Shown here: positions 1 to 26,173 of the stretch, piece by piece | Numbering within the stretch: position 1 is the first letter of the stretch | How the letters are laid out: every line of letters starts with the position of its first letter | Source of the DNA: a virus | Strand: one strand, 5' to 3' | Length of the DNA: 26,173 nt | IMG/VR virus record: IMGVR_UViG_3300049008_000010 | Span: 1 to 26,173 of that record | Program-made: the position numbers and the translations under genes | The notes under the pieces: model-generated | The model's database searches: none | What the model saw: only the letters and a program-made list of their open reading frames with translations | What the model was told of the DNA's origin: nothing

Positions 1-114
1 ACATAAGAGAGCTTAATACACTATATAGTTAGCTACCCCTAGGCTATACCTTAGTAACTACCTTAGAGTCACTAGCGGGGGCCTCCCTATTCTTTAAGTG
101 TGAGGGATTGTACC
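1..114. other. Non-coding AT-rich tract after the tail operon
   Basis: No gene is visible between the GNAT-like gene stop (115) and the window edge. The tract holds two copies of a TACCTTAG motif (47-54 and 59-66) that recurs in the non-coding right end of the window, and the downstream half of the conserved 44-bp element (90-133). A G/C-rich patch at 76-87 does not form a convincing hairpin and no T-run follows it, so I see no intrinsic terminator on either strand. The most likely role is the leader of the next minus-strand unit, which lies outside the window. Confidence 0.6.
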
Positions 115-133
115 TTAACTCGGTATCTTCCGA
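90..133 (-). promoter_or_regulatory. Conserved 44-bp element, copy 1 (putative phage promoter)
   Basis: It matches 25940-25983 at 42 of 44 positions, in the same orientation; the differences are at 119 and 121. Read on the minus strand it contains GGTACAATCCC, where TACAAT (112-107) resembles a sigma70 -10 box, but there is no conserved TTGACA-like box at the right distance. The invariant upstream block GGAAGATACC may replace it as an activator or phage-polymerase contact. This copy overlaps the last five codons and the stop of the GNAT-like gene and would drive a unit beyond the window edge. The promoter role is inferred from conservation and from copy 2 lying just upstream of the first head gene. 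Confidence 0.55.
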
Positions 134-609
134 GTTCTATTTAAACCTACTTCAAAACTTACTTCTTTAAGAAGCATATTTCCATAATCTGTCCAGCCTT
201 CCTTTTCAAGTATCTTGTTAAAACACTTAGGCGTGTGAGGACACGGTGTTGTTATTGCAAGAGATACACCTCTTTGTTGAGAAGCTGCTTTGGTCAGACT
301 TTCATGAGCTACCCTTAAAGCTGTCACTGCTGCATAACCTTCTAGCTTGCAATGGTAGAAGTCTAACTGTAATGCAGTCTTCTTACTATAGTAAGCAGGA
401 CGTGTTATGTTGGCAGAAATCCAGCCTACTATCTCACCATTGTGTTCTAGGACTCTAAAGAATGTGCCACTGGCTAACTTACCTAAAGACACTGCTACAG
501 TTTTCCAATCAACACCGAACTCTGGAACAATAAAGTCAAGGCTTGTACTTGTGGATATATCTAAGCAAGTCTTTAACTCTGCACTAGATTTTAATCTACG
601 GGCTATCAT
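115..609 (-). CDS. GNAT-like acetyltransferase at the end of the tail operon
   Basis: 164 aa. The pattern fits a GNAT fold: a strand pair around residues 49-70 (FFRVLEHNGEIVGWISANI), a helix near 87-108 (EGYAAVTALRVAHESL) where the acetyl-CoA-binding segment would sit, and a C-terminal FNKILEKEGWTDYGNMLLKEV block, the usual 'position in family' signature of GNAT C-termini. The canonical Q/R-x-x-G-x-G/A loop is not clear, so cofactor binding is not certain. The ATG overlaps the stop of the tip-protein gene (ATGA), so it is co-transcribed and probably translationally coupled to it. The substrate cannot be read from sequence; modification of a virion or host protein is possible. The last codons fall within the conserved 44-bp element. 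Confidence 0.6.
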   Translation of the reverse strand: MIARRLKSSAELKTCLDISTSTSLDFIVPEFGVDWKTVAVSLGKLASGTFFRVLEHNGEIVGWISANITRPAYYSKKTALQLDFYHCKLEGYAAVTALRVAHESLTKAASQQRGVSLAITTPCPHTPKCFNKILEKEGWTDYGNMLLKEVSFEVGLNRTRKIPS

Positions 610-3158
610 TGTATCACCAAGCCTAATACAAATGCGTACTCACCTGCAACAGAGCTACGGAGTTTAAGTGAAACTACTGTATCTGTTGTTAGTGTTATTG
701 AAGGTATGTTCACACCGACTGGAACACCTAATTGTGTTACTGTTGCAAGAATGGCCCCAGATGACTCTAATGTAAGTATGGCTGATACATCTACTTCCGC
801 ACAACCTAGTACAGCAGATATATTAGAATAGACCCCCGCTGGAAGTTCAAACATAGTAATCACATAGGGTGTTGTACCTAGAGCGTGAGCGTTTACAGGT
901 ACAATGATAGGATTGGCAAGATAGTTTGAGAGTGTGGCTGTGATAGTAGCTTCCACAGGCAAACTTAACCTATTAAGGGAATCTACTGACCGCACTTTTA
1001 TAAGGACAGATGAAGGCTTTGTTCCAAAATCTTCCAGAAGCTGTGCATCTGTATAGGTCACAGTAACCCTGCTAGTTACCAATGTTCTTACCACCAAACC
1101 TAGCTTTATAATATCAATTGAATACTTGATTGCCCCTATTGCAGCAACCCAGCTTATAGTTGAACCTAAACTTCCTGTAACGCTGGTAGGTGGAAGTAGT
1201 GGTGTGTTACTTGCCCCTGTCTCTGGTGAGTAAGAGCTTATTATTGTACCTGTAGATGCAACTGAAAGGTCAGTAGTAGTTAACACAGAACCATCAAGTA
1301 GGTAGGTGTAGAGAATACCTGTTGTCCACACAGCAGAAGAAGCTGGATGTGATGTGGTACCTTCCGCAGAGAGTGTAGTAAATGAATCCCAGCTTACAGT
1401 AGAACCAACAACTGTTGTCGTAAAGTTAACAGCAATAGGCGGATAGGTTGCTAAAGGTTGTATCACAGGAGGTGCTTCGGAATACTTAGTAGACCACGCT
1501 AACATAGACGGGTCAAATCTCTCAGCGTCAATCTGAATATCACCTACAGGGGACATCTTGGCTGTACTTACCTTGAACACCATATCGGTAACACCTAAGG
1601 CTTCACTTGTTAAGACGAAGTAGTCGGCAGGCTCTAGGATGAACTCTCTTGGAGCGTATGTCAGTGTGAGGTGCACAGTAGACCTGCTGGTTCTCACAGC
1701 TTCTTCTGCAATAGCCAAAGCATGGTACCTATCCACTGTACCGTCTGCTGAAATCTCAGATTCTAATTGAAGGCCTCCGTCCTCAGCTAAGTATGTGTTA
1801 TACAAAGCAGTCTGGTCAAACTTGTCTGGCCATGATACACTGTTCTCTTTAAAGTCAAGGTCTTCGTCCATAAACTTAACTGTACAGAAGTTAAGTCTTT
1901 CACTGCTTGTAGGCCAGGCTAAGCTCAAAGGTTCGCCTAAGATTATATCATCGTCTGTAATAATTGTAGAAGTAACAGGACCTGGAAGGTTAACTGGATA
2001 TTGGAGCTTAAGTTTGTAAATACCACCTGACCACACAAGCCTTGCATCCCCCATAGTACCTAAGATTGTCTCTATGTTATCTCTGATAGGTCTACTTGTG
2101 TCAATTACAAGATTACATTCATATAGAGGCAAGTCACGGGTGTATCTTGTTATTGCACCAGGAGAGAAAGGGTCTAATGGTTGGTTCATTCTACCTTTTA
2201 TAGTAACACCTGTCTGTACAATAGTGTCACATATCAAGGCGGTTTCTTCAAATGAAATCAAGTTTATATCTTCTGGATGTACGCCTCTTCCAGATTCATT
2301 ATCTAATAAGTAATCTAGGAGGCACCATGCAGGGTTGTTTGTGTAGACCTTGGCTGTTTGTAACACACCATCCACTACCTTGGATACAAGTCTCCCCTCT
2401 ACAAAGAACTGTAAACTAGGAGTACCAGAGAATTGTACTGCATCAGATAATCTAAAGCAAGCAGCTGCATAAGCCATGCCATCAAATGTTGCACTAGAGC
2501 CGCCTGTATTTATGTCTGGAAAGTTAAGTTCAAAAGGCCAAGCTGTACCGTAGCCATAGTAGACATCCACCATTAGTGCAGCGTTAGGTTCAAATCTTCC
2601 AAACGTGTCTAACTCGTCTTTGATAGTACCGTACTTAGCCTCTCTTGGACTGCCTCCATCATCAACAGACATATCAGCTACCCTGTGAATAGGGCCTACA
2701 CAAAGAGCCTGTTGCATAAATAGGAATGTGTAAAACTTAAGGTCTAGCCAGTTGTCTAGCATAAGTCCTCCATAAGGGTAACCCCATGAGATACTTCTAG
2801 GTGCTAGCACACCTTCTGCATTATATTCAGAGACTGTATAAGAGCCTCCTTGGGTTGTGTGCATCACTGAATGAAAGGACTTACTTGCATTTACAGTGTA
2901 AAGCGAAGCGGGAACTCCAACACCCGCTCTCATCATATCAGATACATGGGTTCTTACTCGGATACCTCCGATAAGAGCTCTACCATACACAATAGGAAGG
3001 TACGCAGACTGGCCGTCTGTGACTACCTTATAGCCTTCTGTGCTTTGTGTTTGTGATGACGCTCCTTTTCTTTTGGGCTTCATCATGATAGATACAACTG
3101 TCATAGCAACTGAGACAACTGCAAGTATTAATGGAATAAACGGTATTACTGGTGGCAT
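606..3158 (-). CDS. J-like tail tip / host-specificity protein
   Basis: 850 aa. Residues 1-26 are strongly hydrophobic and are followed by a basic KPKRK stretch, as in many proteobacterial phage tip proteins. Next come a block with LPIVYGRALIGGIRVRTHVSD (about 52-75) and a long Phage-tail_3-like region, about 330-555, including DADARLVWSGG-type and LEPADYFVL segments. The C-terminal third is Ser/Thr-rich beta structure; residues about 565-640 and 650-743 look like fibronectin type III modules, and a final beta-sandwich of about 100 residues could carry receptor binding. By family role it closes the tail tip and contacts the cell surface. It starts 1 nt after the upstream stop. It is shorter than lambda J (1,132 aa) because it has fewer C-terminal modules. 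Confidence 0.8.
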   Translation of the reverse strand: MPPVIPFIPLILAVVSVAMTVVSIMMKPKRKGASSQTQSTEGYKVVTDGQSAYLPIVYGRALIGGIRVRTHVSDMMRAGVGVPASLYTVNASKSFHSVMHTTQGGSYTVSEYNAEGVLAPRSISWGYPYGGLMLDNWLDLKFYTFLFMQQALCVGPIHRVADMSVDDGGSPREAKYGTIKDELDTFGRFEPNAALMVDVYYGYGTAWPFELNFPDINTGGSSATFDGMAYAAACFRLSDAVQFSGTPSLQFFVEGRLVSKVVDGVLQTAKVYTNNPAWCLLDYLLDNESGRGVHPEDINLISFEETALICDTIVQTGVTIKGRMNQPLDPFSPGAITRYTRDLPLYECNLVIDTSRPIRDNIETILGTMGDARLVWSGGIYKLKLQYPVNLPGPVTSTIITDDDIILGEPLSLAWPTSSERLNFCTVKFMDEDLDFKENSVSWPDKFDQTALYNTYLAEDGGLQLESEISADGTVDRYHALAIAEEAVRTSRSTVHLTLTYAPREFILEPADYFVLTSEALGVTDMVFKVSTAKMSPVGDIQIDAERFDPSMLAWSTKYSEAPPVIQPLATYPPIAVNFTTTVVGSTVSWDSFTTLSAEGTTSHPASSAVWTTGILYTYLLDGSVLTTTDLSVASTGTIISSYSPETGASNTPLLPPTSVTGSLGSTISWVAAIGAIKYSIDIIKLGLVVRTLVTSRVTVTYTDAQLLEDFGTKPSSVLIKVRSVDSLNRLSLPVEATITATLSNYLANPIIVPVNAHALGTTPYVITMFELPAGVYSNISAVLGCAEVDVSAILTLESSGAILATVTQLGVPVGVNIPSITLTTDTVVSLKLRSSVAGEYAFVLGLVIQ

Positions 3159-3159
3159 C

Positions 3160-3750
3160 TTATACTACCCCTTCGTCAGGTTTTGATTTACCCCAGTTAA
3201 GGGATGCTTGTACAGAACCTCTTGTTATAACATCACAGGAGGAGTCATTTGGGTTTCTTTTTCTAACTATATCTTTTGTTAGATATATAAACTTCTTCAT
3301 TCCTAAGTCATTCACAGGGCTGGCTGCACCTATTACAAGAGCCTCTGCCTCTTCGGATATATCAAATCCGACACTATCTATAAGACCTTTATAGGCAACA
3401 ATACTATAGCTTATAGGCAAGTCTGACGAAGGGTCTATAAACCACAATCTAACTTCTAACAACTTACCTACCAATCCTGTAGAGGATAAGTCTCCAGACA
3501 ACAAGTTAGTGTTACCTACTGTGATTGAGAATAGTGACCTATCTACACTGCTGACTAACTGCACGTTATCAATCTTAAGTATAGGTAACTCATCGCTATA
3601 TGCTACACCATCCAAGTTAATGGAGGAGTGATAAGTTGTACCTGCCCATATGTTAGTAGAGCTTCCTCTGTGCCATATTCTGGCTGTGTAAAAAGTCTCA
3701 TCGGCACCTGCTGCTAGGATTGCCTTTAGTTCTTCTGGTAATGTTATCAT
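3160..3750 (-). CDS. DUF2163-like tail hub / distal tail protein
   Basis: 196 aa. The N-terminal pattern (LPEELKAILAAGADETFYTARIWHRG), a central beta-rich part and the ending KDIVRKRNPNDSSCD...LNWGK resemble the DUF2163/BR0599-type proteins encoded between the tape measure and the J-like tip in many siphophages and gene transfer agents. Such proteins form part of the baseplate hub. A good GGAGG ribosome binding site precedes the ATG, which overlaps the previous stop by 4 nt (ATGA). The family call is from memory of sequence patterns; the tail-tip location is secure from context. Confidence 0.6.
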   Translation of the reverse strand: MITLPEELKAILAAGADETFYTARIWHRGSSTNIWAGTTYHSSINLDGVAYSDELPILKIDNVQLVSSVDRSLFSITVGNTNLLSGDLSSTGLVGKLLEVRLWFIDPSSDLPISYSIVAYKGLIDSVGFDISEEAEALVIGAASPVNDLGMKKFIYLTKDIVRKRNPNDSSCDVITRGSVQASLNWGKSKPDEGVV

Positions 3751-4334
3751 ATCGCCTCCACTAGTTTTATTGTCCCAACATCCATCAAGATACCATCTAG
3801 GTAAGACATCCCTGTTACTGTTCCTACATCCAAGAAGCAGCTCATGTGAACATCATTCTCAAAGTACATTAGTTCAGCTTGAGGTACATCTGCCCTTATT
3901 GGAGGAAACACTTGAATACTTCCAGGTTCTGTTGATGTCACAATATAGACTTTACCATGAGTAGTGAACATTATGTAACACCCTAAAGGTATGTTGCCAG
4001 GAACGGCTACAGTAGTTGCACCTGCAAGGGCAGCTAAGGTTAGTCCTTGAGGTCCTTGATTAGAAGGTACATTTCTGTACGGTTGAGGCATTCTTATACT
4101 CAAGGGTGTATGAAACCCACTGGTGATAAGATAAGCAGCTAATTCAGATGCACTTTCGATAAGAGGTTCTAAGTTAGTATCTATCTCCCAGCGGTGTGCA
4201 GACGCTCTTCTTATGTTTCTTACAAGACTCAATGTGTCTGATATAAATACAGGCACATTACTTCTTATTGTGATAGGGGTTACAAAGCTAGCTATAATAT
4301 CCCCTGCGTTGTTTAGAATCCCATGTTTGTTCAT
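3747..4334 (-). CDS. Distal tail protein, short paralogue of the upstream gene
   Basis: 195 aa, not recognised as a named family. It is homologous over its whole length to residues 1 to about 194 of the protein encoded at 4353-5870. The first 58 residues align without gaps with 37 identities, including RSNVPV, RWEID and NLEPL, and the ends correspond (DGILMDVGTIKLVE against DGILMNTGTVKLVE). The pair therefore arose by duplication. Context between the tape measure and hub genes implies a tail-tip structural role. No clear Shine-Dalgarno is visible upstream of the ATG, so expression may depend on coupling to the gene 18 nt upstream. Confidence 0.65.
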   Translation of the reverse strand: MNKHGILNNAGDIIASFVTPITIRSNVPVFISDTLSLVRNIRRASAHRWEIDTNLEPLIESASELAAYLITSGFHTPLSIRMPQPYRNVPSNQGPQGLTLAALAGATTVAVPGNIPLGCYIMFTTHGKVYIVTSTEPGSIQVFPPIRADVPQAELMYFENDVHMSCFLDVGTVTGMSYLDGILMDVGTIKLVEAI

Positions 4335-4352
4335 AATGTATTTTAGGTTGAG

Positions 4353-5870
4353 TTAATTAAATAGTATAACGTAATTACCCGATACATCCAGCGCGTAATA
4401 AACACCATTACGCTTCCATCCGTAACCAACGGCGAAATGGTTAATCGAGTCATCAACCATAACTGCCTCGCGGGTAAATGTCTCTGTAGCTGTATCAAAA
4501 AACCACAGCCCTTCCGTATATAGCCCATAAGAAGAGCTAATAATTAAAAGACTGCCATCTATGCCTGCCGCACGAAAATGAGTAGTCACGCCCGATGATA
4601 CTGGTATAGCAAAAAAAGTAATCATATCCGTAACCACATTGACGCGATAAAATCCGCCCCCACCATTTAGATAAATGTTATCGCCGATTATACCAATAAT
4701 GCCGAATACGCTTTCTGGCATTATGAGATAACCAATTTGCACTAGATTTGCATCTAATTTTAGTAGCGATATACCTTGAGTTGCATAAGCCCAATAATGA
4801 ACTCCATGCCCTATGATTTCGCCCTGAATATCGTAACGATAAAAGATGCCACCTGTTTGCGCCGCTATTTGTGTACCCGATAAATCTAGCTTATAGACTT
4901 TGCCATCACTCCCACCAACACCCGCCGTTCCCATTAATAAATAATCACCTACCCGTGACATTGTGCGTACTTGGTAAGCTAGGTGTATACTCTCTAACAC
5001 CCGTCCAGCAGGGGTAATTTTTGTAAGGTAACTGTTGTAATAATCAACGCCTACCGCGAACCATAAGTTGTCACCATCCGCAGCCCCCAGAACAGCAAAA
5101 TCATAAAGACCGTAGCGCGGCGTTATATATTCAAGTGTTGCTAGAGTTGTTAAGTTGACAATAGTAATAACTCTGCCTCTATTGTTATTGGCAATGTAAG
5201 CATAGTTAGTGGTCTCAGTTGCTTTGACAGGAGAATCTACATAAAACCTATCTAAAGTTGGTATAATGCGTGCCTTTGCAACATAACTAATACGTTCAAC
5301 CAGTTTTACTGTACCAGTGTTCATCAGTATACCGTCTGTATACGAAGAGCCAGTTACTGTACCTGTGTCATAAAGGCAAGACATAACTACATCATCTTCA
5401 AAGTAAATAGAGCCTGACACATCTTTTAGCAGTGCAGGAAATACAGTAAGACCTCCACCTGGAAGATTACCTACAACCATGTAAACTTTACTATGATTGC
5501 TAAACTTAACAAAGCAACTAGCAGGGATAACACCTTCTGTATATACAGTGTAAGAACCTTTAAGGTATATACCTAGTAAAGCTTTAGGTCCTTGTATTGC
5601 AGAAGGTTGCCTGTAAGGTTGTGGCACTATTATCGATAGAGGTTTATACAAACCGTGCGTAACTAGGTGTACACCTAGATTTACTGCATCTTGCGTAAGA
5701 GGTTCTAGGTTAGCGTCTATCTCCCACCTCTGGGAGTTTAACTTCCGTACCTTCCTTTTGAGGCTTAAAGCATCTGACACTAACACAGGAACATTACTTC
5801 TTACTGAGAGAGGTGTTACAAATCTTGCTATAACTTCCCCTGCGTCATTTAAAATACCATACTTCTTCAC
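4353..5870 (-). CDS. Distal tail protein with appended beta-propeller (receptor-binding candidate)
   Basis: 505 aa from a GTG start at 5870. A TTG six bases upstream (5876) is in frame but abuts the AAGGAG ribosome binding site (5882-5877), whereas GTG lies 6 nt from it. The GTG start gives MKKYGILND, which aligns with MNKHGILNN of the paralogue. Residues 1 to about 194 are the shared tail-tip domain. Residues about 210-505 hold six or seven repeats of about 40 residues, each with a short strand after a GD/DN/NG turn (DNLWFAV, GDYLLMG, GDNIYLN, GSLLIIS, NGVYYAL), the pattern of a beta-propeller. Propellers on tail proteins usually bind surface glycans or proteins, so this is the best receptor-binding candidate besides the J-like protein. 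The propeller DNA is much richer in CpG than its surroundings. Confidence 0.7.
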   Translation of the reverse strand: MKKYGILNDAGEVIARFVTPLSVRSNVPVLVSDALSLKRKVRKLNSQRWEIDANLEPLTQDAVNLGVHLVTHGLYKPLSIIVPQPYRQPSAIQGPKALLGIYLKGSYTVYTEGVIPASCFVKFSNHSKVYMVVGNLPGGGLTVFPALLKDVSGSIYFEDDVVMSCLYDTGTVTGSSYTDGILMNTGTVKLVERISYVAKARIIPTLDRFYVDSPVKATETTNYAYIANNNRGRVITIVNLTTLATLEYITPRYGLYDFAVLGAADGDNLWFAVGVDYYNSYLTKITPAGRVLESIHLAYQVRTMSRVGDYLLMGTAGVGGSDGKVYKLDLSGTQIAAQTGGIFYRYDIQGEIIGHGVHYWAYATQGISLLKLDANLVQIGYLIMPESVFGIIGIIGDNIYLNGGGGFYRVNVVTDMITFFAIPVSSGVTTHFRAAGIDGSLLIISSSYGLYTEGLWFFDTATETFTREAVMVDDSINHFAVGYGWKRNGVYYALDVSGNYVILFN

Positions 5871-5882
5871 TTGCAACTCCTT

Positions 5883-5914: not shown

Positions 5915-8900
5915 TTAACCGAAACCTTTCTCTCTATTATGTATGTTAACACCAGAAGCTATTATAGGCATCATCTTAAATATCTCTGACTTGGTCTGTC
6001 TTGATACATCTCCCACTACTTTCAAGTTGATTGTCTGTGAGTTGCTTATAGGAGAGTTACTTGCCGACTTACTTGATACAGCCTCTCTATAAGAAGACTG
6101 CACACCTGTTTTAGTGATTTGACCTCCTGTTGCTAAATGGTGTGTTCTACCGCTGTTGATAGCGTGGAGTAAACCTTGGTTTTCCATAGCATCTTTAGCA
6201 TTTACTACGAACTCTCCAGTTGATAACATAGCTGGGACTGAGTCAGAGGTTCCTGTACCTGGACCTACTATTGGACCGCCTGCGGCCTTCTTTAATGCAC
6301 CGTCTGCGAAGCTGCCTAGTGTATCTCCTGCCATCTTACCTAATTGTGGACTACCGAAGTAAGTACCTACGGCTGTTCCTACAAGACTGAGGCCAGTCTT
6401 TACTGCACCTCCTGTCTTACTACTTTTTCCACCTCCTGCTGAGTTGCCTATCAAGGTGTTAGTCTGCTGTATCAGGTTTGCTATTGTAGTGAGCATTTGT
6501 AATACAGAACTCCCTTGAGGTATAGCCGCAGGACCTGCTGAACCTCCTTTAGCAAACAGACTGCCTAGGCTTCCAGCAAGGCCTGATATCCCATTAATAG
6601 CTCCACTGCTAAGAGCCTCATTCGCTGTCATATCACCTATGTAGCTAGAACTTCCTGCACCTCCAGGTTTTAACACAGAATTTGTACCTGCTTGCAACCC
6701 TAGCATTTCATTATCTGTGCCAGTGTTTCCAGCATAATCCTTTAACAGTGTTGTTGAAGATAAAGCAGCAATACCTGCACTGGCTAAACCACCTAACATA
6801 CCTCCTGTAGGATTCGTAGAGGAGACTGTACTTGGTCCACTGGCGCCTAATAGAGTGTTAGTCTGTTGCAACAACTTAGCTATCGACGCAAGAATACCTT
6901 CAACACTGCTTGTGTCTATCTCAATAGGTGCATTGGTATCTACACCTAAAGCCTTGTCACCCATGCCTCCGATACCTGAACCTAGTGCAACACCAGCCTC
7001 AGAGCTACCGAACCATCCACCTACTACACTTCCGATGGAACCAAAGATGTTACTAAAGACACCTGTAGAGGGACTGCCTTCACTGGATAAACCAAGGCCA
7101 CCTTTACCAGATGTAATCGAACCAAGACCTTGCAAGGCAGTCTCTATTACAGAACCTTTGCCTGCAATAGTATTCATTAGACCATCTAACACATGGCTAA
7201 AGAATGTTGTCTTCATCTTATTGAGACCTTCTGTAGCAACCTCTTTAAACGATTTATCAGTAGTTGCGTAGTCCTGCAATGAAGAAGAGAACGTACCTAG
7301 GATGTTGCTGGAGAATGACTTACCTGCCGCTCTAGCTTCTGCCTCAGGGTCTTTACCTTCTGTGTCTAAGGTATTCTTAAGGTCTTCTTGCTTCTTTGTA
7401 AGCTGTATCTGTAAAGCTCTCTTCACCTTAGGGTCATTTGTGAGGTTCATCTTGTCTTTCAACTGACCAATACTCTTAACAAGACCTTCTGCGAATACAC
7501 GTTCAGTTTCACTAAGAAGATTAATAGCCACAGAATCTGCTGACTCACCTATTCTGGCAAGACCTTCACCAAGTTTATCAACACCTAAACTTGCAACTAA
7601 GCCGTCTGTGAAGGCATCTACTTGAGCCTTGCCTGCTTCGGCTGTTATTGCCTTGATGTCAACTTGGTTCTGCACATCTTTTATTTGTGCTGCTACACCT
7701 GCTGCTGCTTCAAGAGACTTTGTACTAAGAGTCTTTAGGGATTCTTTATACATATCTAAGGAAGGTACCATTGCTGTTATATCTGCAATGAGAGTTGAGA
7801 TTGAAGCACCTTTTATTGAAGCTAGTGTAATCTCAGCCTGTGTTCTGCTATCAGCTACCTTGTCTGTTGCAACCACAGCTTCTTGAGCCTTCGGTGGAAC
7901 AACTTGGAGTGAAGGTTTGTATGTATCATCATTAGCCTGTGCTGGAATGACAGTATGAACTTTAGGCAACATCTCTTCCACTTGTTGTTTAACACTTGTA
8001 AAAGGTTCCTTTACTATTCTTGAAGCAAGTTCACCTCTGTTGTCCATTGCTTCACTTACAGCAAGCGGCCTTTCATAGTACTTAGACAAGACACGGCCAG
8101 CTCCTTTTGCTGAATCAGTTCTTCTTAGCCTATCACCAGCAGATTTCTCTGTGTTGTTCAGCTCCCAGTTTACAAACTGTAATTGCTTTATTAAAGAAGA
8201 ACCTAATAAATCTTCACCAAACACCCTCTTAAAGTCTCTTTGCCTAGGCGGTTGCCATTGCCCTGCACCTATAGATGCTCCGCTATCACCTTTCTTTATG
8301 CCTGATATAATACTGTCTTTCAGTCCGCTTTCAGCTATAAGATTGGCAGTTATTCCAGCAGATTGGTTCTTAGTCCAACCCATCTCCATGAACTTAGTCA
8401 TCACAGAGGATGTTCTTGAATCCGTAGAAGGGAGTGAGTCCTGAACCTTAACACCATTTACTGCTGCATTGGTTTCTACTGTTGCAGAATCTATACTTGT
8501 TGGAACCATCACCTTTGTGTTAGCATCTATACTCTTGAGTATTTCATTGGTGTCTGCCAGTGCAGTTTTGAACAAGCTATCTGGTACAGCTAAGTTAGGG
8601 ATTTCACCAGTATTGCTAACATAACTGTCATTAGCTTCGACTTGATTATTCTTAGCTAAAGCTTTCTGGTAGAACCCTTCAAACTGCTCAGGTTTCATAC
8701 CTATAGCAGAGTCAACTGTAAGGTTCGTACTAAAAGCTTTGTTGATTGCTTCAACCTTACCTGAATTAGTTGCGAAGTTGTCTTTGATATTCTTAGCTAT
8801 CTTCTCAGACTTAGCCAACCAACCGTATATCTCTTGGAACCTTGAAGCATTGTCAGGGTCTTTTAGAGCCTCCTGTAAACGCTTGATGTTAGAATCAACC

Positions 8901-17900: not shown

Positions 17901-20794
17901 GCTTTTGCAATTAGGTCTATACTCTCACCTAGCTTATCAAGTGTTTCATGAGGGATGCCGAGGTCATCTAACAAACCTTTAGTCTTAGAACCTAAGCTCA
18001 GTTTCTTAAAAATACCACCAATAGCTTCTGAGAGTTTATCCCACGAAGGTAGTTGAAACATACTCACTACATTTCCGATACTATCAGCCAGTTCATTAAA
18101 ACCACCTGCCAATGGAGACATATCAAACACATCAGCTAGAGCAACTAACACATTATTAATAGAATCAAGATTAGGTAATCTGAACTTACTTAGCTCTGAC
18201 TTAAGTTCATCGGCCCATGACATATCAATGCTGAACATATCTGACACAATTGTTGTCTCAGAGAGCTTAGAAATAGATGCGATAAAACCTTTTACTGCTG
18301 CAATATAATCAGCGTAATCAGGTGTTTTAAGGTTGGAGCCTATCTCAACCAAACTTTCTTTAAATGCTTGGAGTCTTGCTGTATCTGGTAAAGTAAAGTC
18401 TTTGAACAAACCTGTAAGACTCTTAATGAAACGCTGAACTACATCAATATCAGGAAGACTTATGTTAGGGATAAACCCCTTCAAAGTTTCAGATACAATA
18501 TTGAAAGAATCTTGAAGCACAACAATAAACTTGTCTAAAGCTCCATGTGGAATCTCTAGTGTATCAAGTATAGATAAAGCCCAGCCCATACTAATTTTTG
18601 GTAAAGGTATTCTCTTAAGGTTAGTCCAAGCTGAATACAGAAGTGTTAGTGTACCATCTACCAACCCTTGCATATCAAACTGTGAAAAGAGTCCTTGAGT
18701 GAACCTTAACGCTGTATGATAAAGACCTCCTATGAACATCTTGATAGGGCCTTCTGCGGCCCGCTCATCTAGGTTATACACGAATTTAATAGCGACAGCA
18801 GGTAACTTGAAGATTGCATAAGATAAGGCAGTTCCTATGTAATAACCGACTCTGCTGTACAGAACTTGGAGTATGTTGCCAAAGGTAGCAGACAGCATAG
18901 ATTTTACTTCTGATAATGGTCTAGCTAATACACTATGTAGTACAGGGCCTATAACTTGTGTGTAAGCCATGCTTGCTGTTGATGTAAGTCTAGCTATATC
19001 CATATCTGCACCAGCTTGGTTAAAACTAGCTCCAGATAGGAGTTCAGTATCTCCTGTAAACTCACGCTTAGTTTGGTGAACTCTAGCAAGCAGCTTACCA
19101 AATGCCCAGCTAACTGCATTAACCTTTGGAGCTAACCCTGACCAATCACCTGTCCAGATAGCGTCACTAAGCTTATCCAGGTTAGCGATAGCCTCTGGCA
19201 TATCCTTCGAGGTTATTAAGTTAGTAAATCCACGTTGAAGAGTTGTATCTCTAACTTGCCACAGTGAAGCAGCTTCATTAAAAGAGTTAATAGACCTTGA
19301 GATACTGTATATCGACTGAGTGATAGAAGACGCTCTGTGTGCAAATCTAACCTCAAACTCTTTCTTTATAAATTCAGACCTAATACGAAGGGCCATTATA
19401 GGAAGCATAGACCTTAGCCTCTCGCCTGCTTCATCCTTGAATCTTTGATACACTTCTGGCCCTGATAGTTTATCATCTTTCAATGGTTCTTTACCATCCC
19501 TTTTACGGATAGTTGCTTGAGCGTCTCTGATTCCCTCTCTAGCCACTGCACTCTTATTTCTTCCTGGGCTTCTAAAGATGTGCATAAACTGTCTACGAAG
19601 CCTTTCACTAATAGCCAACTGGTCGCCGTACTCAGCGTTATCTCCTGCTGTAATAGATGCAGACTCTCTCTTCATCTCCTTGATAGCAGTCATCATGTTT
19701 GTTACTATTTTAAGCTTATCAGCAACAGCTTTGACTGACTCTACATCATTGTAAATTTGAAGGATGTCATACAAACTTAAATCCGACTTAAGTATAGCCT
19801 TAACGGTAAACACAATAGTTCTTGAAGATAACTTATCTACCAATAAGGAGTATTTCTTAATAGCAGTCTGTTCGACTTTATCTAGTATGTTATCCACTGC
19901 ATTGTTTATACCAGATGTCATAGCGTTGACTCTCTTTAACAATCCTTTTGTCAAGTTAAAGTCTTGCGATAACACACCTGCTCCGTATTTAAAAGCAGCA
20001 ACCATTCTAGTTACAGAAGCCTCTACAGTAAACGCAGATGAAGTGAAGTCTTTATTAGTCTTTTCAGCCATACCTTCTAAGCTTTTAACTAACATATCGT
20101 TATTGAATACACCTGCGGCACCCATCTTCTTAATTTCACCAGCAGTTTTACCTAGCTGCTCCTGGAACCCCTTTGATACATACTTTAAGTTCTCCTGCAC
20201 AGACTTTAACTCGTCACCTGCGAATAAATCAGAAGATACAGCTTGTGTTAGTTGTGTAAGACCTGCCTTAGCTTCTTGCGCACCAGTTCCTGAAAGAGCT
20301 GCACCTTGTTGTAAGGTCTTGACAATTCCAATAACTCTTGAATTACTTACTCCCTTCTTCTCGAGGGCTTGTGCAAAATCTACATAGAGGTTTGTACCTG
20401 AGCCTACATCTGAGTATGTCTCTTGTGACATCTTGTATAGTTTGTCTTGTGTAGATTTAACTTCTTGTGCAGTCTTACTAACAAGTTTCAACCTGTTCTG
20501 GATATTAATTAAGTCATCTGAAACAGCAACCACACTACTTCCAGCCTTAAGCCCTATAAACCCTGCGGCAACACCTACTAAAAGACCTTGCATCTTACTA
20601 AGTCCAGAGTTTACACTCTTTACATTAGAATCCATCCCTTTCATAGAAGCACTCCCTGCACCTCCTATGTTCCCTAGAGAGCGTCCAGCCCTATCCGAAG
20701 CTAACACTAAATTAGCTAAGCTTCTGTTTAACTGAGCGAGCCCATCCTGAGCACCTCTTGTATTCATACCTACATCAAGCGCAATGCCTGTCAT
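5915..20794 (-). CDS. Giant tape measure protein with lysozyme-like domain
   Basis: 4,959 aa from ATG 20794, with an AGGAGG ribosome binding site just upstream. Residues about 80-275 match the phage tape-measure N-terminal pattern (TIGR02675-like: DDLINIQNRLK, LQQGAALSGTGAQEAKAGLTQLTQAVSSDLFAGDEL). Residues about 1090-2480 contain many hydrophobic segments, candidates for the membrane channel formed at DNA ejection. From about 2480 to 4100 the chain is mostly helical and charged. Residues about 4120-4255 resemble a phage tail lysozyme domain (MTKFMEMGWTKNQSAGITAN, then IAESGL with E4155 as likely catalytic acid, and GAGQWQPPR). Residues about 4600-4840 are Gly/Ser-rich with internal repeats, and the C-terminus has the common GPGTGTSDSVPAMLSTGEFVV motif (about 4840-4865). 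The protein sets tail length: at about 0.15 nm per residue the tail would be near 740 nm. Lambda gpH has 853 residues. Confidence 0.95.
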   Translation of the reverse strand: MTGIALDVGMNTRGAQDGLAQLNRSLANLVLASDRAGRSLGNIGGAGSASMKGMDSNVKSVNSGLSKMQGLLVGVAAGFIGLKAGSSVVAVSDDLINIQNRLKLVSKTAQEVKSTQDKLYKMSQETYSDVGSGTNLYVDFAQALEKKGVSNSRVIGIVKTLQQGAALSGTGAQEAKAGLTQLTQAVSSDLFAGDELKSVQENLKYVSKGFQEQLGKTAGEIKKMGAAGVFNNDMLVKSLEGMAEKTNKDFTSSAFTVEASVTRMVAAFKYGAGVLSQDFNLTKGLLKRVNAMTSGINNAVDNILDKVEQTAIKKYSLLVDKLSSRTIVFTVKAILKSDLSLYDILQIYNDVESVKAVADKLKIVTNMMTAIKEMKRESASITAGDNAEYGDQLAISERLRRQFMHIFRSPGRNKSAVAREGIRDAQATIRKRDGKEPLKDDKLSGPEVYQRFKDEAGERLRSMLPIMALRIRSEFIKKEFEVRFAHRASSITQSIYSISRSINSFNEAASLWQVRDTTLQRGFTNLITSKDMPEAIANLDKLSDAIWTGDWSGLAPKVNAVSWAFGKLLARVHQTKREFTGDTELLSGASFNQAGADMDIARLTSTASMAYTQVIGPVLHSVLARPLSEVKSMLSATFGNILQVLYSRVGYYIGTALSYAIFKLPAVAIKFVYNLDERAAEGPIKMFIGGLYHTALRFTQGLFSQFDMQGLVDGTLTLLYSAWTNLKRIPLPKISMGWALSILDTLEIPHGALDKFIVVLQDSFNIVSETLKGFIPNISLPDIDVVQRFIKSLTGLFKDFTLPDTARLQAFKESLVEIGSNLKTPDYADYIAAVKGFIASISKLSETTIVSDMFSIDMSWADELKSELSKFRLPNLDSINNVLVALADVFDMSPLAGGFNELADSIGNVVSMFQLPSWDKLSEAIGGIFKKLSLGSKTKGLLDDLGIPHETLDKLGESIDLIAKAYKNREQLMERVKFIYDGAGEFKYSGLKNLPRDLAARATVKTIDYAISVGIDVPYAKTYKFIKLVRETVDSVKELTEKVKGFFMFDRKGIDFSIKMPKMSSLKAVAKDIDETLNTSHPKGLDLRKVVAGITVAITALMSPLLAFQALVVLAVNSLANSLYVIGDSVSDVIDKVIDGIDSSSIKGLFERLRQGVVDGLYGLSSLLGKSVILESIAETIKGSNKGGLAEVIRSTIATAIAIAVGGAYPFIAYLTITGIVLKNVGNSGLSKYFDTLMTEVGKVAEKVAEIVTRAVVLGINGLVTLTPALLKGVIEGIIGSTFGAAQSSAVGLLVSNNLINALAIGLLGYVAFAKKGFKTVKKLFSSLATIPAPAMGTGMGARVFFNNKLLAVAAAAAMSTAMMDSISIFEASFVAAPLLLFAILGKDGGLHAIKVAALGLAGAFNSVFSIARPLVMATPLGMSASALLTSTGLGSSLPTSPAYQAAIARLHASRLALQSTAMSGYKNFVRNSVSNGGQFGAVGSTMTAKQALQTNANGTILPIRPVLNEAIASLKAAPLDKAGASLGASGLVISTAFNGMVASIRGLGPGFSAAISAIGVPLTWLQRKVGMFNVALQSIGSGVPKGVHGLVSVFQIVALSIGRHLGRIALEYVRFIDLLASPIKSAVAFLGPQWTKWILGAIVAIGMLALSIKDAKAGTNELLSTKSTSMSDGLSGLTIGMLGFATAIGVAKLAYSGLVKHQLTTPSLMFKLARIDGRAGATGVKDRLALGIGEVLARVTPMHADRLRLPSIISNSKLPGTAFLRSSVWWGNALRSNRSMNIRDSIGKNYDYAKEFLRDQQRVGNAYVPGSSFATRRSALKDYAPERLARTAKIRQALLQEFNSVGADAVHVSQRLGTREMGSKTGRTLLKGLPGFDFNFFKGEAAEKGTKFFHSAAAGLMSMNLSSLKLGATWSMLASKMALLKVGFVGLILSLGLMGASAVKESFWDKHNNLRETKTEVEGLTSGFVALGVAMLAIPSIFKAITAYSKGMVFTDVAKASSAQSIINTQKGNILNNKLGLSKGLLGKSPALLAAERLQYISFGKQMIANVPATIYPGMSARLLTRASPTKQVLRTLKDIAQGNLNTSIPSLPPIAGYRVLPKEQRQAIRDKRAALYERYGRSYYDVRSVVPPIKVDRVALLKAQYDLWKAQNTRVTPTILRANTQRLKDEAARAISVLPGNIQPRASSALAGVNSKLSTLRAAPFSSFTEFQKQQRSIESLTKARSKLEALVARPLSVSNIAQVASINAQLARDIASQPGTFNAGVRAMRESMLGLGSAAKVSIASFAKGMFTVPFWANLLKQVTMFRASLAIGAIFLAVKISSTDTVRESIRELSSSATTLIGILAGVTAAIGVMYLALRAPTNGLGFFSSLTKLLGEFIKLAWIAAKSPLWLAGKVNSYVNPYSAASKAKMAATGAAGMKGLAVDAAGKAVLNTTPLVAPMGAFQAGVQTFVKGVAKWGMIGAGVAVLAVVYQSMKGDSDGIAMNIGKVWDGLRSILDMKATTVGGRMSVMRDNLSPMNVGNTRVDFSAQLRKIDFGKMSQEKFNSFEDVAKEHRGSLDSLVKLAMKQGSLTAEQETELAKTTKMVEDLLSRNSNTAGMSIADIADNGRDKLTSVNNNTWTALQRMLGQDSSIGPITSKRFNEKQIEQIKVDNSKGFMEKTGDHIVKVWSDKFTVAAGEWGYKELSKGQLGSAQLVSTIAKLSNSNASYLRPEDQTKRETLVAGIYDAKAYANEHRSDAGGYEAQVAYLKALEENLPLLNELNRKAEDLKNISVFDKGFKDTLGKLKDSFKIDLVDESKVNMFPASTADIKQLDVLLAKADEIKGRVLRTTSERVTAAQDMNASLEGATAKVAEIKAKISESSLLAFQITILPPSVGATEDYLRLLKSYSEAKSIELTASVDTLSQAKIDYNAISPNAPRAERKLGQDKVDRAAYNAVIASPTLPQFEDINAKGAAVNMEAITASQFDSFNEKGLVEYSVQLDKVRSSFATIGAMKNKLGEPDYFNNMKLSVEAYNKELAKSAALLAKAALERAKEDKGSLAGQSIRLAADLKVELNTTDYAGFIPLAQEVLRLQSALADLKSNVGRTSDVFKNTDAAKVADQTLESRPTALVESFTVSAKSLFPKNELIDAFSQAMKENATDNSTLSEKIKSVTTASGASDLDLTTKREVADADARGEAQKGYRGLSKSLSDLRTGSDKLLSKYINPVTFGLSKIPDSVLDFVNIKPKYATNYNPLDSRGEFKTTPVQGTLGDIAKSETLYTSLFDFKAQFKEATRDKGSLFYNSPKGNYDKIVARGFAVMEASRESYRDILNAVPNDYTEASRDKTRERPNSNLVEVVSNSLSKFDTAKAGLMLDSFIASAKETGDSIAAALKPEHPLTFAERTGKFAPLSQGAQLNNGIDRRVKPALMDSVVGTFNNGGERSPTMDPYYKMKDYSKSLIDIPSLDKAPIDIGSTLASELVKGDIFNVKKDLASLDTDFSKVLESQVSDAVKATSAVVEMSSVPLNDIDSDKYAKVTLELANAKANLDAFNVAAKTTKELLGESLKLFPSLNDEQRKELVGLYTQKESNRQVLENLSKYNTPEGLKTVAVAVESEKDVNVKLGAINKAGTNQSQTTALSTGSDLTKYTAYNALTGGTGSDSLMNNPAKLADAVKTLTQITAINTSLKDIGLPDSKKVELFSSLTSLKEHLAGLEEPSKRLKDLFGGSLASLLGATPQAFKRMKVLGEDLAKLKLSLETATGKEAQGIRAKIVSKEGEVSSINRVSDTQGKLQAYTGGTAAEQYQRSLTLDVSPASNEALSKAGGLEKHNSLQKAMLTKKLELESAPTVRGYQQLGAMERALNTVSEKAKTLQETLSATGVAMEDLRGISASSFKTLMSLGQSTMFVDKQLSELDASASQSTFDTLMKRKDDNVKIAFEVMMQAIHNTPEKISKALAEFGVTSSSVMASLSQGAVDSLLKVDSNIKRLQEALKDPDNASRFQEIYGWLAKSEKIAKNIKDNFATNSGKVEAINKAFSTNLTVDSAIGMKPEQFEGFYQKALAKNNQVEANDSYVSNTGEIPNLAVPDSLFKTALADTNEILKSIDANTKVMVPTSIDSATVETNAAVNGVKVQDSLPSTDSRTSSVMTKFMEMGWTKNQSAGITANLIAESGLKDSIISGIKKGDSGASIGAGQWQPPRQRDFKRVFGEDLLGSSLIKQLQFVNWELNNTEKSAGDRLRRTDSAKGAGRVLSKYYERPLAVSEAMDNRGELASRIVKEPFTSVKQQVEEMLPKVHTVIPAQANDDTYKPSLQVVPPKAQEAVVATDKVADSRTQAEITLASIKGASISTLIADITAMVPSLDMYKESLKTLSTKSLEAAAGVAAQIKDVQNQVDIKAITAEAGKAQVDAFTDGLVASLGVDKLGEGLARIGESADSVAINLLSETERVFAEGLVKSIGQLKDKMNLTNDPKVKRALQIQLTKKQEDLKNTLDTEGKDPEAEARAAGKSFSSNILGTFSSSLQDYATTDKSFKEVATEGLNKMKTTFFSHVLDGLMNTIAGKGSVIETALQGLGSITSGKGGLGLSSEGSPSTGVFSNIFGSIGSVVGGWFGSSEAGVALGSGIGGMGDKALGVDTNAPIEIDTSSVEGILASIAKLLQQTNTLLGASGPSTVSSTNPTGGMLGGLASAGIAALSSTTLLKDYAGNTGTDNEMLGLQAGTNSVLKPGGAGSSSYIGDMTANEALSSGAINGISGLAGSLGSLFAKGGSAGPAAIPQGSSVLQMLTTIANLIQQTNTLIGNSAGGGKSSKTGGAVKTGLSLVGTAVGTYFGSPQLGKMAGDTLGSFADGALKKAAGGPIVGPGTGTSDSVPAMLSTGEFVVNAKDAMENQGLLHAINSGRTHHLATGGQITKTGVQSSYREAVSSKSASNSPISNSQTINLKVVGDVSRQTKSEIFKMMPIIASGVNIHNREKGFG

Positions 20795-20813: not shown

Positions 20814-20847
20814 AAACCCCCACCGAAATGAGTCAGTGAGGGAGTTT
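20814..20847 (-). other. Hairpin in the leader of the tape measure gene
   Basis: On the minus strand the arms AAACTCCCTCAC (20847-20836) and GTGGGGGTTT (20823-20814) pair with one bulge, one skipped base and one T-G pair around a 12-nt loop. It sits between the upstream stop codon and the tape measure ribosome binding site (20804-20799). The sequence after it, ATTTAGATTAGG, is only moderately T-rich, so termination would be weak at best. It may act as an attenuator or processing site with the stronger hairpin just upstream. Confidence 0.45.
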
Positions 20848-20848
20848 G

Positions 20849-22801: not shown

Positions 22802-23202
22802 CAGGTATTACTCCATGAATAGTTAATTGTGTACTCCGAAAGATGGAGTCCAGGGTTTGCCTTATCAACACCATAGTGAGACAAGGTACTGTTTGTAAAT
22901 ATAAGTGTACCTAAGGAGCCTTTTACAGATTTACCCATTAGGTGTTTGTCAAGAATGTCAGAGATTACACTAGTCCGTCTTACACCTATCCCAGCTTTTA
23001 TAAATATCTGGGCTATGAGAAAACCTCTGGAAGACCTTGCACTGTATGAAGGACTTCCAGTTGCAATATCAAGTCTAATAAACTCTTCTGTTATAACACT
23101 TACGAAGTTGTTAGGTAACACCTTTAGGTTTTCTGCAAGAAACGCAGGAGTCCTCAGCAAGGAGTAAATAGAGTCTTCCAACTCAGTGAATTTACCCGAC
23201 AT
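22801..23202 (-). CDS. Tail terminator-like protein
   Basis: 133 aa. The order of elements, an N-terminal helix (KFTELEDSIYSLLRTPAFL), a strand FLIAQIFIKAGIGVRR, a helix SVISDILDKHLMG, then GTLIFTNSTLSHYGVDKANPGLHLSEYTINYSW, matches DUF4128/gpU-like tail terminators that cap the tube and dock to the head. It lies directly before the tube gene as expected. Its ATG lies 11 nt inside the end of the preceding gene. Confidence 0.65.
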   Translation of the reverse strand: MSGKFTELEDSIYSLLRTPAFLAENLKVLPNNFVSVITEEFIRLDIATGSPSYSARSSRGFLIAQIFIKAGIGVRRTSVISDILDKHLMGKSVKGSLGTLIFTNSTLSHYGVDKANPGLHLSEYTINYSWSNT

Positions 23203-23539
23203 TAGATACCTCCGAGATAGAAAGTAAAGAGATTGAATCAGCTACAAAATCTAACGCTGACACTTTCCACTTGGAAGTTCCAATAGTAAGCTCTGTGCCT
23301 ATTGAGTGTGTCACACCTTTAAGTAATAGCTTTGCTGACACATTACCTGACATATCTGTAGTACGCTTTGTTATTAAACCTTTAGCTGACACAGGTACAG
23401 ATAATGAATCAACAGCTAGTCCCGATGTAAAGTCAAAAGAAGCTGACGTACCTTCTACGCTGGTAACATCTGACGTTAAATCACCAGCTATCGAGAAAGC
23501 TTTGTTTAAGTTAGTCTCAATGATAGATTTTAATTTCAT
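23192..23539 (-). CDS. Head closure (stopper)-like protein
   Basis: 115 aa, beta-rich, with a stretch GNVSAKLLLKGVTHSIGTELTIGTSKWKVSALDFVADSISLLSI that resembles the beta-barrel end of head-tail joining proteins (lambda FII / HK97 gp9-like). Position between adaptor and tail terminator supports a stopper role: closing the connector after DNA packaging. Sequence similarity is weak, so the call leans on gene order. The start overlaps the adaptor stop by 1 nt. Confidence 0.5.
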   Translation of the reverse strand: MKLKSIIETNLNKAFSIAGDLTSDVTSVEGTSASFDFTSGLAVDSLSVPVSAKGLITKRTTDMSGNVSAKLLLKGVTHSIGTELTIGTSKWKVSALDFVADSISLLSISEVSNVG

Positions 23540-24012
23540 CAGTTAGCCACCCACACCAAAGTACCTGTACTGGTCTTTAACATAGACTTAGCAAGGTTAG
23601 TTATAGCAACAGGGATTCTCGAAGGAGGCCTTATAACGTCTAAGGAGACACCTCCTATGTTTAAATCTCTGACACTACCTGCATCTGCTAACACATCTGA
23701 GGAACTAAGTAAGTGCAATGCTAGTTCGCAACACATAACTCTTATCTCAGAAGGGGTAGGTGACATAGGTTTTAAGTATCCCTGCCTTATGTTAAAGTAC
23801 ATTTCTGTGCGAGGGAACGCTAAAGGTTGGTCAGCTATTACTGACCGACCTTTCCAGTGAAGCTCATCTAACATTCTTGTTGCAGTACATAACGCTGCTT
23901 CTTTATCTGAGGTACTGGCTGCAACCCAAGCAGTTGATGCAAGTCTTGTAGCAAAGTAAACCTCAGCTCCTGCAACATCCTGATAAGAATTTACATCTAG
24001 TACCAGAGACAT
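23539..24012 (-). CDS. Head-tail adaptor with DnaT_2-like domain
   Basis: 157 aa. The N-terminal region (DVNSYQDVAGAEVYFATRLASTAWVAASTSDKEAALCTATRMLDEL, then WKGRS and QPLAFPRTEMYF) is the DnaT-like ssDNA-binding pattern (DnaT_2) found in many phage head modules right after the capsid gene. In phages it is thought to be a head completion/adaptor protein of the HK97 gp6 type, not a replication protein. The C-terminal half is helical (EIRVMCCELALHLLSSSDVL). The ATG lies 1 nt after the capsid stop. Confidence 0.7.
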   Translation of the reverse strand: MSLVLDVNSYQDVAGAEVYFATRLASTAWVAASTSDKEAALCTATRMLDELHWKGRSVIADQPLAFPRTEMYFNIRQGYLKPMSPTPSEIRVMCCELALHLLSSSDVLADAGSVRDLNIGGVSLDVIRPPSRIPVAITNLAKSMLKTSTGTLVWVAN

Positions 24013-24013
24013 A

Positions 24014-25186
24014 TTAAGCGTGGAACACAGGTAAGATACCTAACGTAAGCACAGATGTTGCTTTACGGACCCACACACCAGTTGCTGTGTCAGCCTGGTT
24101 GGTGGTTAGTGTATCTAAGTTTACAGGAGTGCCACCACGAACCACTTGCTTGAAGTGTGTATCAGAGGGGAACACAGTTTGTGAACCACCCCAGCTATAT
24201 CCAGCAGGCGCAAGTACATAACCCCAACGGCTCCAGATACTAGAGATACCACCACCTTGATAGGCATTACCGTTACGGGTAATCTCAACAGGTACGGGCA
24301 TAACTAACGCCTCAGATTCAATAGAGCCTGGTAGGATAATGAAGCTTGTTTTAGTACCAACAATGTTTACGCCACCACCACCATTTAAGGCAGTAAGTTC
24401 AGCCGTAGACATATTCATGTTTGTACGAGTAACAAACAGTCTGAACTTACCTTGGAAGATAGTATCAAATGTAATGTTACCGTCAACCACACCAATATCA
24501 TCAACTAAGTTAGCTGAACGTAATGATGAGAACACCTCAGGTGTAATGGCTAAGTATGCGAACGCTGGCTCATAGTCTTTGAATGCAGCAGTAAGTGCAT
24601 TCAAGAAGTTAGTTGCGCGAGCTGCACCTTGAACTGCGACAGAGGCAGCTACAACAGGCGTTTCAGCACCTAAGTCAACATAGAAACCATTGACTGCACT
24701 TTGAGGGTCGTTACTAAAGGTTTGTCCACCTAAGCCGCCAGCTTGAGTACCAATTAAGGCCTCTGAGATGGCAATACCTTTAAGTAAGGATGTGATAGCA
24801 CCATTCTCATCTTGGACTTGTGCCTCAGCGAAACCATTACTGATACGCTCTATGCTGTCCATTTGTGTGATTAACTCAGCGGTGTTAATAGCTTCTGCAC
24901 CAGTTGAGCGGGCAGTCTTGATGTAAGTCAAGAAATCTTGAGCACCGTTAGTAACAACGCCAGCCGTTGGGTCTGTTAGTGTTAACACATTGATATTGTG
25001 GTTCAATGGTTTATTCCACTTTAACTGCCCAACGAAGGTTTCAGTCTTAGTATCTATAGTAGGGTTTCCACCTACCATTAAAGTTCCAAGGAAAGTCTTA
25101 GCCTTTGTGTAGGCTTCGTCTCTCATGAACTGTAAAGAGTTCTGTAGGACAACTGTTTGGTTGTCTACAACTTGAGTTGCGGTCAT
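24014..25186 (-). CDS. Major capsid protein (HK97 fold)
   Basis: 390 aa, single chain. The C-terminal half carries patterns common in HK97-fold capsid proteins: FAYLAITPEVFSSLRSANLVDD and FDTIFQGKFRLFVTRTNM (about 205-260), and GISSIWSRWGYVLAPAGYSW (about 312-333). The N-terminal region is helical and has no obvious protease-processed delta domain, which fits a separate scaffold protein encoded just upstream. Translation starts at ATG 25186 after an AAGG ribosome binding site, 9 nt past the scaffold stop. Confidence 0.85.
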   Translation of the reverse strand: MTATQVVDNQTVVLQNSLQFMRDEAYTKAKTFLGTLMVGGNPTIDTKTETFVGQLKWNKPLNHNINVLTLTDPTAGVVTNGAQDFLTYIKTARSTGAEAINTAELITQMDSIERISNGFAEAQVQDENGAITSLLKGIAISEALIGTQAGGLGGQTFSNDPQSAVNGFYVDLGAETPVVAASVAVQGAARATNFLNALTAAFKDYEPAFAYLAITPEVFSSLRSANLVDDIGVVDGNITFDTIFQGKFRLFVTRTNMNMSTAELTALNGGGGVNIVGTKTSFIILPGSIESEALVMPVPVEITRNGNAYQGGGISSIWSRWGYVLAPAGYSWGGSQTVFPSDTHFKQVVRGGTPVNLDTLTTNQADTATGVWVRKATSVLTLGILPVFHA

Positions 25187-25195
25187 AAGTTTACC

Positions 25196-25876
25196 TTATC
25201 GTCTAAGCGGAAGCTTCCCTTTTCGTGCGAGTTCGAGGATAGCTGCCGTAGTTAATGTTCCTGGTGCACCTGGGGATGACTTTGTTCTGTCTGTTCCAGA
25301 CCCACTGGAGTTTGTTTGTTTAAGCAAGAAAGCATTATCTTCACTATCTAAGAAAGCCTTTACAGACTCGGCTAATGTTGAACCTGACTTGTGAAACCAT
25401 ACGTTGTCAGTGAACACCATATCTCTTGCTAGTTGGGATACAGCTATTGCTGCTGCTGTGTCATTAGCAAAGACTACACCTTTTAGATGTACACCTATAG
25501 AGTTATCTCTTGCTAGTTCACTGTTTTGTTTAGATAACTCAGCAACTTTAGTTGAAGCCTCTGAGGCTGCCTGTGTTGCTGCTCTTAAAGCTTCCTCAGC
25601 TTTAGTTAATTTTGTTGCAGTTGCGGCAACCTCTAACGCATGAAGGGCTTTAAAGTCTCCCTCAGCTTTAGCTTTTTCTTCTAGTGCCTTGTCGTGAGCT
25701 TCTTTGTCAGCGGCAATCTTGGCATTTGCTTCGTCTAGTGCAGCCTGTGTGCTGGCTTTGAGAGCATCTCGCTCAAGTCTTGCGGCATCACGTTCAGCGT
25801 AGCTTGCATCTAAACTAGCTTTGATTGGTTTTAAAGCCTCCGCTATTGCGGCTGCTATCTTCTCTTCTTCGGTCAT
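25196..25876 (-). CDS. Capsid scaffold-like protein
   Basis: 226 aa. Residues 1 to about 120 are Ala/Glu/Lys-rich and form a long predicted coiled coil (ALDEANAKIAADKEAHDKAL, LTKAEEALRAATQ). Residues about 125-195 form a compact domain (HLKGVVFANDTAAAIAVSQL, WFHKSGSTLAESVKAFLDSE) like that of scaffold proteins in related head modules (DUF6651-like). The tail is Ser/Gly-rich and ends basic (RKGKLPLRR), typical of capsid-binding scaffold C-termini. It is the first gene of the operon: GGAG lies 9 nt before ATG 25876, and the conserved 44-bp element is about 65 nt upstream. No protease motif is visible. Confidence 0.75.
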   Translation of the reverse strand: MTEEEKIAAAIAEALKPIKASLDASYAERDAARLERDALKASTQAALDEANAKIAADKEAHDKALEEKAKAEGDFKALHALEVAATATKLTKAEEALRAATQAASEASTKVAELSKQNSELARDNSIGVHLKGVVFANDTAAAIAVSQLARDMVFTDNVWFHKSGSTLAESVKAFLDSEDNAFLLKQTNSSGSGTDRTKSSPGAPGTLTTAAILELARKGKLPLRR

Positions 25877-25896
25877 TGAGCACAGCTCCGTTAATC

Positions 25897-25915
25897 ACCT
25901 AAGCACAGCCTAGGT
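25897..25915 (-). other. Small hairpin in the leader of the scaffold gene
   Basis: On the minus strand ACCTAGGC and GCTTAGGT pair over 8 positions (one G-U) around a 3-nt loop. It lies between the putative promoter and the ribosome binding site of the first head gene, so it would be in the 5' end of the late transcript. It may stabilise the message; no terminator features follow. Confidence 0.35.
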
Positions 25916-25939
25916 TTAAGTTTTAAAAGATTACTTCGG

Positions 25940-25983
25940 TTCTTTAAGTGTGAGGGATTGTACCTTAAATGGGTATCTTCCGA
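25940..25983 (-). promoter_or_regulatory. Conserved 44-bp element, copy 2 (putative late promoter of the head-tail operon)
   Basis: It matches 90-133 at 42 of 44 positions. It lies 64 nt upstream of the first structural gene and points towards it. TACAAT (25962-25957, minus strand) could be the -10 box, giving a leader of about 75 nt. Flanking bases differ at once outside the 44 bp, which argues for selection on the element itself. A 13-bp palindrome sits immediately upstream (25986-25998). The promoter role is inferred from position; a recombination site or RNA signal remains possible. Confidence 0.6.
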
Positions 25984-25985
25984 AC

Positions 25986-25998
25986 ACCTCTTAGAGGT
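25986..25998. promoter_or_regulatory. 13-bp palindrome next to the 44-bp element
   Basis: ACCTCT-T-AGAGGT is a perfect dyad around one central base and ends 2 bp from the conserved element. Its place just upstream of the presumed promoter suits an activator or repressor site. It is absent next to copy 1, so it would be specific to this operon if functional. Confidence 0.35.
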
Positions 25999-26036
25999 AT
26001 CTAAGTTAGACACCTAGGTATTACAGCAGATAGCAG

Positions 26037-26171
26037 CTACCTTAGTATATATATATCTATTTAAGATAACACTTAGGATATACTCAGCTATTACTTAACA
26101 GCTTAGTGTCTGCTATACTCTCTGCCTTAACATATAGCTATATGCTACATAGTCAACTACCTTAGTATATA
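26037..26171. repeat. 15-bp direct repeat with TACCTTAG core
   Basis: CTACCTTAGTATATA occurs at 26037-26051 and 26157-26171. Shorter forms with the TACCTTAG core lie at 47-54 and 59-66. I did not find the 8-base core inside any gene of the window. On the minus strand the core reads CTAAGGTA, close to the TTAAGGTA found in both 44-bp elements, so they may share a binding factor. Confidence 0.45.
26131..26144. promoter_or_regulatory. Perfect 14-bp palindrome
   Basis: CATATAGCTATATG is its own reverse complement. It is in non-coding DNA between the two copies of the 15-bp repeat. It is a candidate operator, but AT-rich palindromes of this size can arise by chance. Confidence 0.3.
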
Positions 26172-26173
26172 CC

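Follow-up and report, generated by a model that had tools for sequence, protein, structure and literature searches.

The DNA analysed here (the window; 26,173 bp, an entire virus record) has lost nearly every copy of several unrelated restriction palindromes. GATC and CCGG are each present once, and similar losses of CTGCAG and RCATGY are seen across the window and two further contigs that very probably belong to the same phage genome. Long selection by several Type II restriction–modification (R–M) systems of the hosts is, with good confidence, the explanation that we favor. Site loss is a known escape route from restriction, and the present case is a strong and unusually complete new example of it.

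We counted all 256 tetramers of the window against Markov models, and GATC proved to be the most depleted of them. The single observed copy compares with an expectation that ranges over the models from 45 to 96: base composition gives 95.5, first- and second-order Markov models 57 and 76, Karlin's tau* 45 (ratio 0.022) and 500 synonymous codon shuffles within genes 60 (sd 6.3, minimum 41). A sequence-only reading of the window had reported one GATC, in the tape measure gene, and had expected about 90. The exact count bears out the site, and the expectation matches the base-composition figure, the other models giving 45–76. The same reading had called GTAC, AGCT and CTAG common, as the tetramer count also shows, and tens of GATC sites were not seen. 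Its claim that the loss is specific to GATC was wrong: its set of common palindromes left out CCGG, which is equally purged, with one copy against 17–25 expected (19 by tau*, ratio 0.053), and the purge extends to CTGCAG, RCATGY and, probably, ATGCAT. The avoidance of GATC itself is confirmed as a genuine and very strong signal. AATT, TTTT and AAAA are also low in the window, at 0.37–0.52 of the synonymous-shuffle level, but their joint lowness looks like a trait of composition rather than a purge. CpG is far below expectation in the window (rho 0.46) and lower than in any of the relatives compared.

Both GATC and CCGG are eliminated from the window as Rusinov et al. 2018 use the term (15 or more expected sites and a tau* under 0.1; PMC6286503). 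In that survey, elimination (ratio below 0.1) was found in 7.5% of phage–site pairs, mainly at orthodox Type II sites and in non-temperate dsDNA phages (PMC6286503).

The avoidance of GATC is made by synonymous codon choice. Aspartate before a codon beginning with C is encoded by GAC in 28 of 28 cases in the window and never by GAT (0/28), which is used at 271 of 415 other positions. Isoleucine ATC is likewise absent after codons ending in G (0/76, versus 111/426 elsewhere), and serine following xGA is encoded by AGY in 25 of 26 cases. With the two further contigs pooled in, GAT before C stands at 0/94 versus 710/1101 at other places, and ATC after G at 0/244 versus 274/1016. The surviving GATC is formed by an AGA–TCT codon pair that could be changed silently, and it is therefore not forced by the protein.

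Table 1. Coordinates of sites, genes and repeats in the window.
Feature	Position	Strand	Basis and remarks
Region purged of GATC and CCGG	1–26173	.	GATC 1, CCGG 1; whole window
Sole GATC	14112–14115	.	AGATCT context; within tape measure gene
Sole CCGG	15364–15367	.	within tape measure gene
Tape measure protein gene (putative)	5915–20794	-	ORF of 4959 aa carrying both surviving sites; function from position, length and order
Tail tip / central fibre protein (J-like), predicted	606–3158	-	phrog_31, E 1e-28
Major capsid protein, query for relatives	24014–25186	-	36% identity to DSS3_VP1 coat protein; metagenomic relatives up to 57–58%
Scaffold protein, predicted	25196–25876	-	phrog_206
Head–tail adaptor, predicted	23539–24012	-	phrog_477
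Half of dispersed intergenic repeat	1–133	.	common to two other contigs, 96–97% identity
Other half of dispersed intergenic repeat	26008–26173	.	99% over 117 bp to start of 3300049008_000044; 94% over 159 bp to end of 3300049008_000021

The window encodes only head and tail functions. Two further IMG/VR contigs, 3300049008_000044 (21,508 bp) and 3300049008_000021 (24,297 bp), both from metagenome 3300049008, contain its first 30 bases; its last 30 bases gave no match. The start of _000044 aligns to the right end of the window and then to its left end (96%, 134 bp), and all three contigs start and finish in halves of one intergenic repeat of roughly 300 bp. This repeat, parts of which lie at 1–133 and 25940–26173 of the window, at L089 1–316, at L091 1–187 and at the end of L092, apparently sits at the module borders of one phage genome; assemblies break at repeats of this kind. 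The first partner, _000044, encodes a large terminase (assigned by position and order, with no Pfam match), a portal, a head morphogenesis protein, ThyX and an M15 peptidase. The other, _000021, encodes a single-subunit RNA polymerase, a family A DNA polymerase, a primase–helicase, a DNA ligase, RNase H, a gp2.5-like SSB and a 5'–3' exonuclease. Because the end repeats are shared, the gene sets are complementary, the named genes of all three contigs lie on one strand and the summed length of ∼72 kb resembles that of the DSS3 phages described below, we take the three contigs to be, very probably, one phage genome.

The same loss extends over the partner contigs. On the three together, GATC occurs once, against 125 (tau*), 168 (first-order) or 217 (second-order) expected and 160 in synonymous shuffles (minimum 135), and CCGG occurs twice, against 51–55 expected and 54.5 in shuffles (minimum 37). 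Scanning 586 further palindromic patterns added CTGCAG (1 versus 23 expected, nominal p 2e-9) and RCATGY (1 versus 17, nominal p 1e-6), and its follow-up found no ATGCAT where 11–14 were expected; ATGCAT is probably among the purged sites. All three counts lie below those of all 200 synonymous shuffles of the three contigs, which gave 23 (minimum 13) for CTGCAG and 35 (minimum 24) for RCATGY, although the expected numbers behind these three losses are small and the scan covered 586 sites. The weaker deficits of GATATC, CAGCTG, TCTAGA and YACGTR may stem from a milder avoidance of palindromes in general, and avoidance of this kind at 6-base palindromes may also add to the CTGCAG, RCATGY and ATGCAT losses.

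We compared these counts with those of relatives, which the capsid protein finds by the hundreds in viral contigs. Among 37 relatives with 9 kb of sequence or more (36 from viral contigs, plus EBPR siphovirus 1), not one had a 4-base palindrome at less than half of its expected count at p < 1e-3. In 84 relatives pooled (0.95 Mb), GATC stands at 0.90, CCGG at 0.91, CTGCAG at 0.97, RCATGY at 0.95 and ATGCAT at 0.88 of expectation. EBPR siphovirus 1 resembles the window in its capsid (51% identity) and a tail tube-like protein (45%) but shows no avoidance (GATC 202/204 expected, CCGG 143/165), and the closest outside relative of the terminase, L097 (49%), has 19 GATC in 11 kb. The nearest classified phages are DSS3_VP1 and DSS3_PM1 (Naomviridae, Noahvirus), with genomes of 75 and 70 kb and like modules. 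Their capsid, RNA polymerase (32% identity) and DNA polymerase (31–32%) are homologous to those of the three contigs, and on these genes and the like set of modules the phage is probably akin to Naomviridae. In DSS3_PM1, by contrast, GATC (361/348) and CCGG (105/116) are not avoided. Since the relatives keep their sites, the purge is a trait of the window's lineage and not of the family. In the capsid tree the branch of the window is long and no sister is supported, and searches of viral contigs with its tail tip, tape measure and tail tube proteins returned no relatives. As one form of protection by DNA modification in the kin, we searched 20 relatives for adenine/amino methylases (PF02086, PF01555) and QueC and found none.

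The best explanation of these results is that a virulent, siphophage-like phage has long been resident on hosts with several Type II R–M systems, which would include at least one enzyme for GATC (DpnII/Sau3AI/MboI-like), one for CCGG (HpaII/MspI-like) and, probably, enzymes against CTGCAG and RCATGY. Each site would be a risk of cutting at entry, and site-free mutants, arising nearly always through synonymous codon changes, would have been selected until almost none of the sites remained. The phage may be virulent: no integrase was seen among the proteins scanned, and a capsid profile matched nothing in the bacterial genome set, as expected of a virulent phage; the pattern search behind this result reaches only part of the kin. 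With no prophage kin in that set, prophages provide no host name. No plasmid match for the window was found.

Staphylococcus phage K, a virulent phage that is likewise depleted at more than one site, provides a yardstick for this mechanism. In its first 40 kb, GATC (0/56 expected) and GGCC (0/10) are both absent, and its GATC loss has been documented as an escape from Sau3A and is put down to Type II restriction in the host (PMC6532042). Phage K is nevertheless unrelated to the phage described here, most likely has an unrelated host, and differs in its second lost site, GGCC rather than CCGG; the present phage has lost 6-base sites too. T7 is the second yardstick. Like phage K it was used as a single case for mechanism and not as a survey, and the sequence-only reading had already named it. 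T7 is virulent, has a single-subunit RNA polymerase and is low in GATC (6/108 expected), so that the likeness holds for this site. It fails for the others, because T7 keeps CCGG (58/70) and the present phage has lost CCGG and more.

The GATC deficit of T7 speaks for a different explanation, Dam-linked selection of the kind put forward for T7 and other enterobacteriophages, in which MutH nicks unmethylated GATC or loss of GATC evades mismatch repair. The T7-like replication and RNA polymerase genes of the present phage favor this explanation, as does phiX174, which lacks GATC and for which a passage of PMC5014478 cites the MutH proposal of Deschavanne and Radman 1991. As the sole cause we nonetheless consider it unlikely. 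Selection through Dam and MutH acts on GATC only, whereas CCGG, CTGCAG and RCATGY are purged here as well, and the joint purge of several unrelated palindromes points to host Type II R–M rather than to Dam/MutH alone. Dam-linked selection could still have been responsible for the GATC loss while other systems acted at the remaining sites, with MutH at GATC and restriction elsewhere as one example. Methyl-dependent restriction of the DpnI type, in some hosts, following Dam methylation in others, would likewise select against GATC, but it requires two kinds of host and leaves CCGG and the 6-base sites unexplained; its probability is very low. The sequence-only reading had suggested a GATC-cleaving host system of either the methyl-sensitive or the methyl-dependent kind. 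A cleaving host system stands as the best explanation, although not one for GATC alone, and the multi-site pattern favors methyl-sensitive Type II enzymes over the DpnI type.

Hardly more probable than the DpnI-type explanation is self-avoidance, in which phage nucleases would attack host DNA at GATC and CCGG and the phage would have purged its own sites. The contigs do carry HNH- and GIY-YIG-like endonuclease genes and many unknown genes, but these endonuclease families are of the homing type with long targets, and several enzymes would be required for several distinct sites. Nor did a methylase, a Type II enzyme or MutH turn up among the ∼46 proteins scanned; these came from ∼79 ORFs with 70 aa or more, and the remainder are mostly short. 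Bias in composition or mutation, or chance arising from codon use or the assembly, has next to no probability as a cause. Low CpG reduces the expectation for CCGG, but in Markov, tau* and synonymous-shuffle controls that keep composition and codon use the observed counts are still 0.5–2% of expectation for GATC and 4–6% for CCGG, and relatives of like composition show no purge. For GATC these controls refute the explanation outright.

Under host Type II restriction, the purged sites can be read as a fossil record of the enzymes that the virus had to survive, and the combination of GATC, CCGG, CTGCAG and RCATGY as a fingerprint for matching an uncultured phage to the restriction repertoires of hosts. 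The sharp contrast with the relatives also allows one to ask why some lineages escape by site loss and others do not. One lineage, with a genome of ∼72 kb, has purged four to five Type II sites and its sampled kin none; tentatively, this might reflect either an exceptional number of Type II systems in its hosts or its lack of a general anti-restriction device possessed by the kin.

Several other features of the three contigs were observed. The tape measure gene, at 14.9 kb, accounts for over half of the window and is about three times as long as that of DSS3_PM1 (4968 bp). The adjacent genes at 3747–4334 and 4353–5876 of the window are 70% identical over their first 290 bp and, by this alignment, represent a tandem duplication, the longer copy having ∼300 additional residues. 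To the right of the scaffold gene lies a stretch that folds better than its shuffles (z -2.8). No tRNA genes were found in the phage contigs scanned. Short intergenic repeats occur at L089 783–850, 1095–1190, 4157–4250 and 5860–5900 and at L091 1899–1991 and 4721–4765. They consist of a core, ACCTTATATAGAAAGA, followed by a stem–loop-like AAGGAGCCTCTTAGC...GTGTTCCTTAG, and stand directly before start codons; they are candidate promoters for the phage-encoded RNA polymerase. The head morphogenesis protein of 1678 aa encoded at L089 5896–10932 matches the RNA polymerase profiles phrog_414 and phrog_2051 in its later part, and this virion protein may carry a second polymerase-related domain. A gene at L089 5457–5840 encodes a NADAR domain (E 6e-15), a family tied to NAD/ADP-ribose metabolism.
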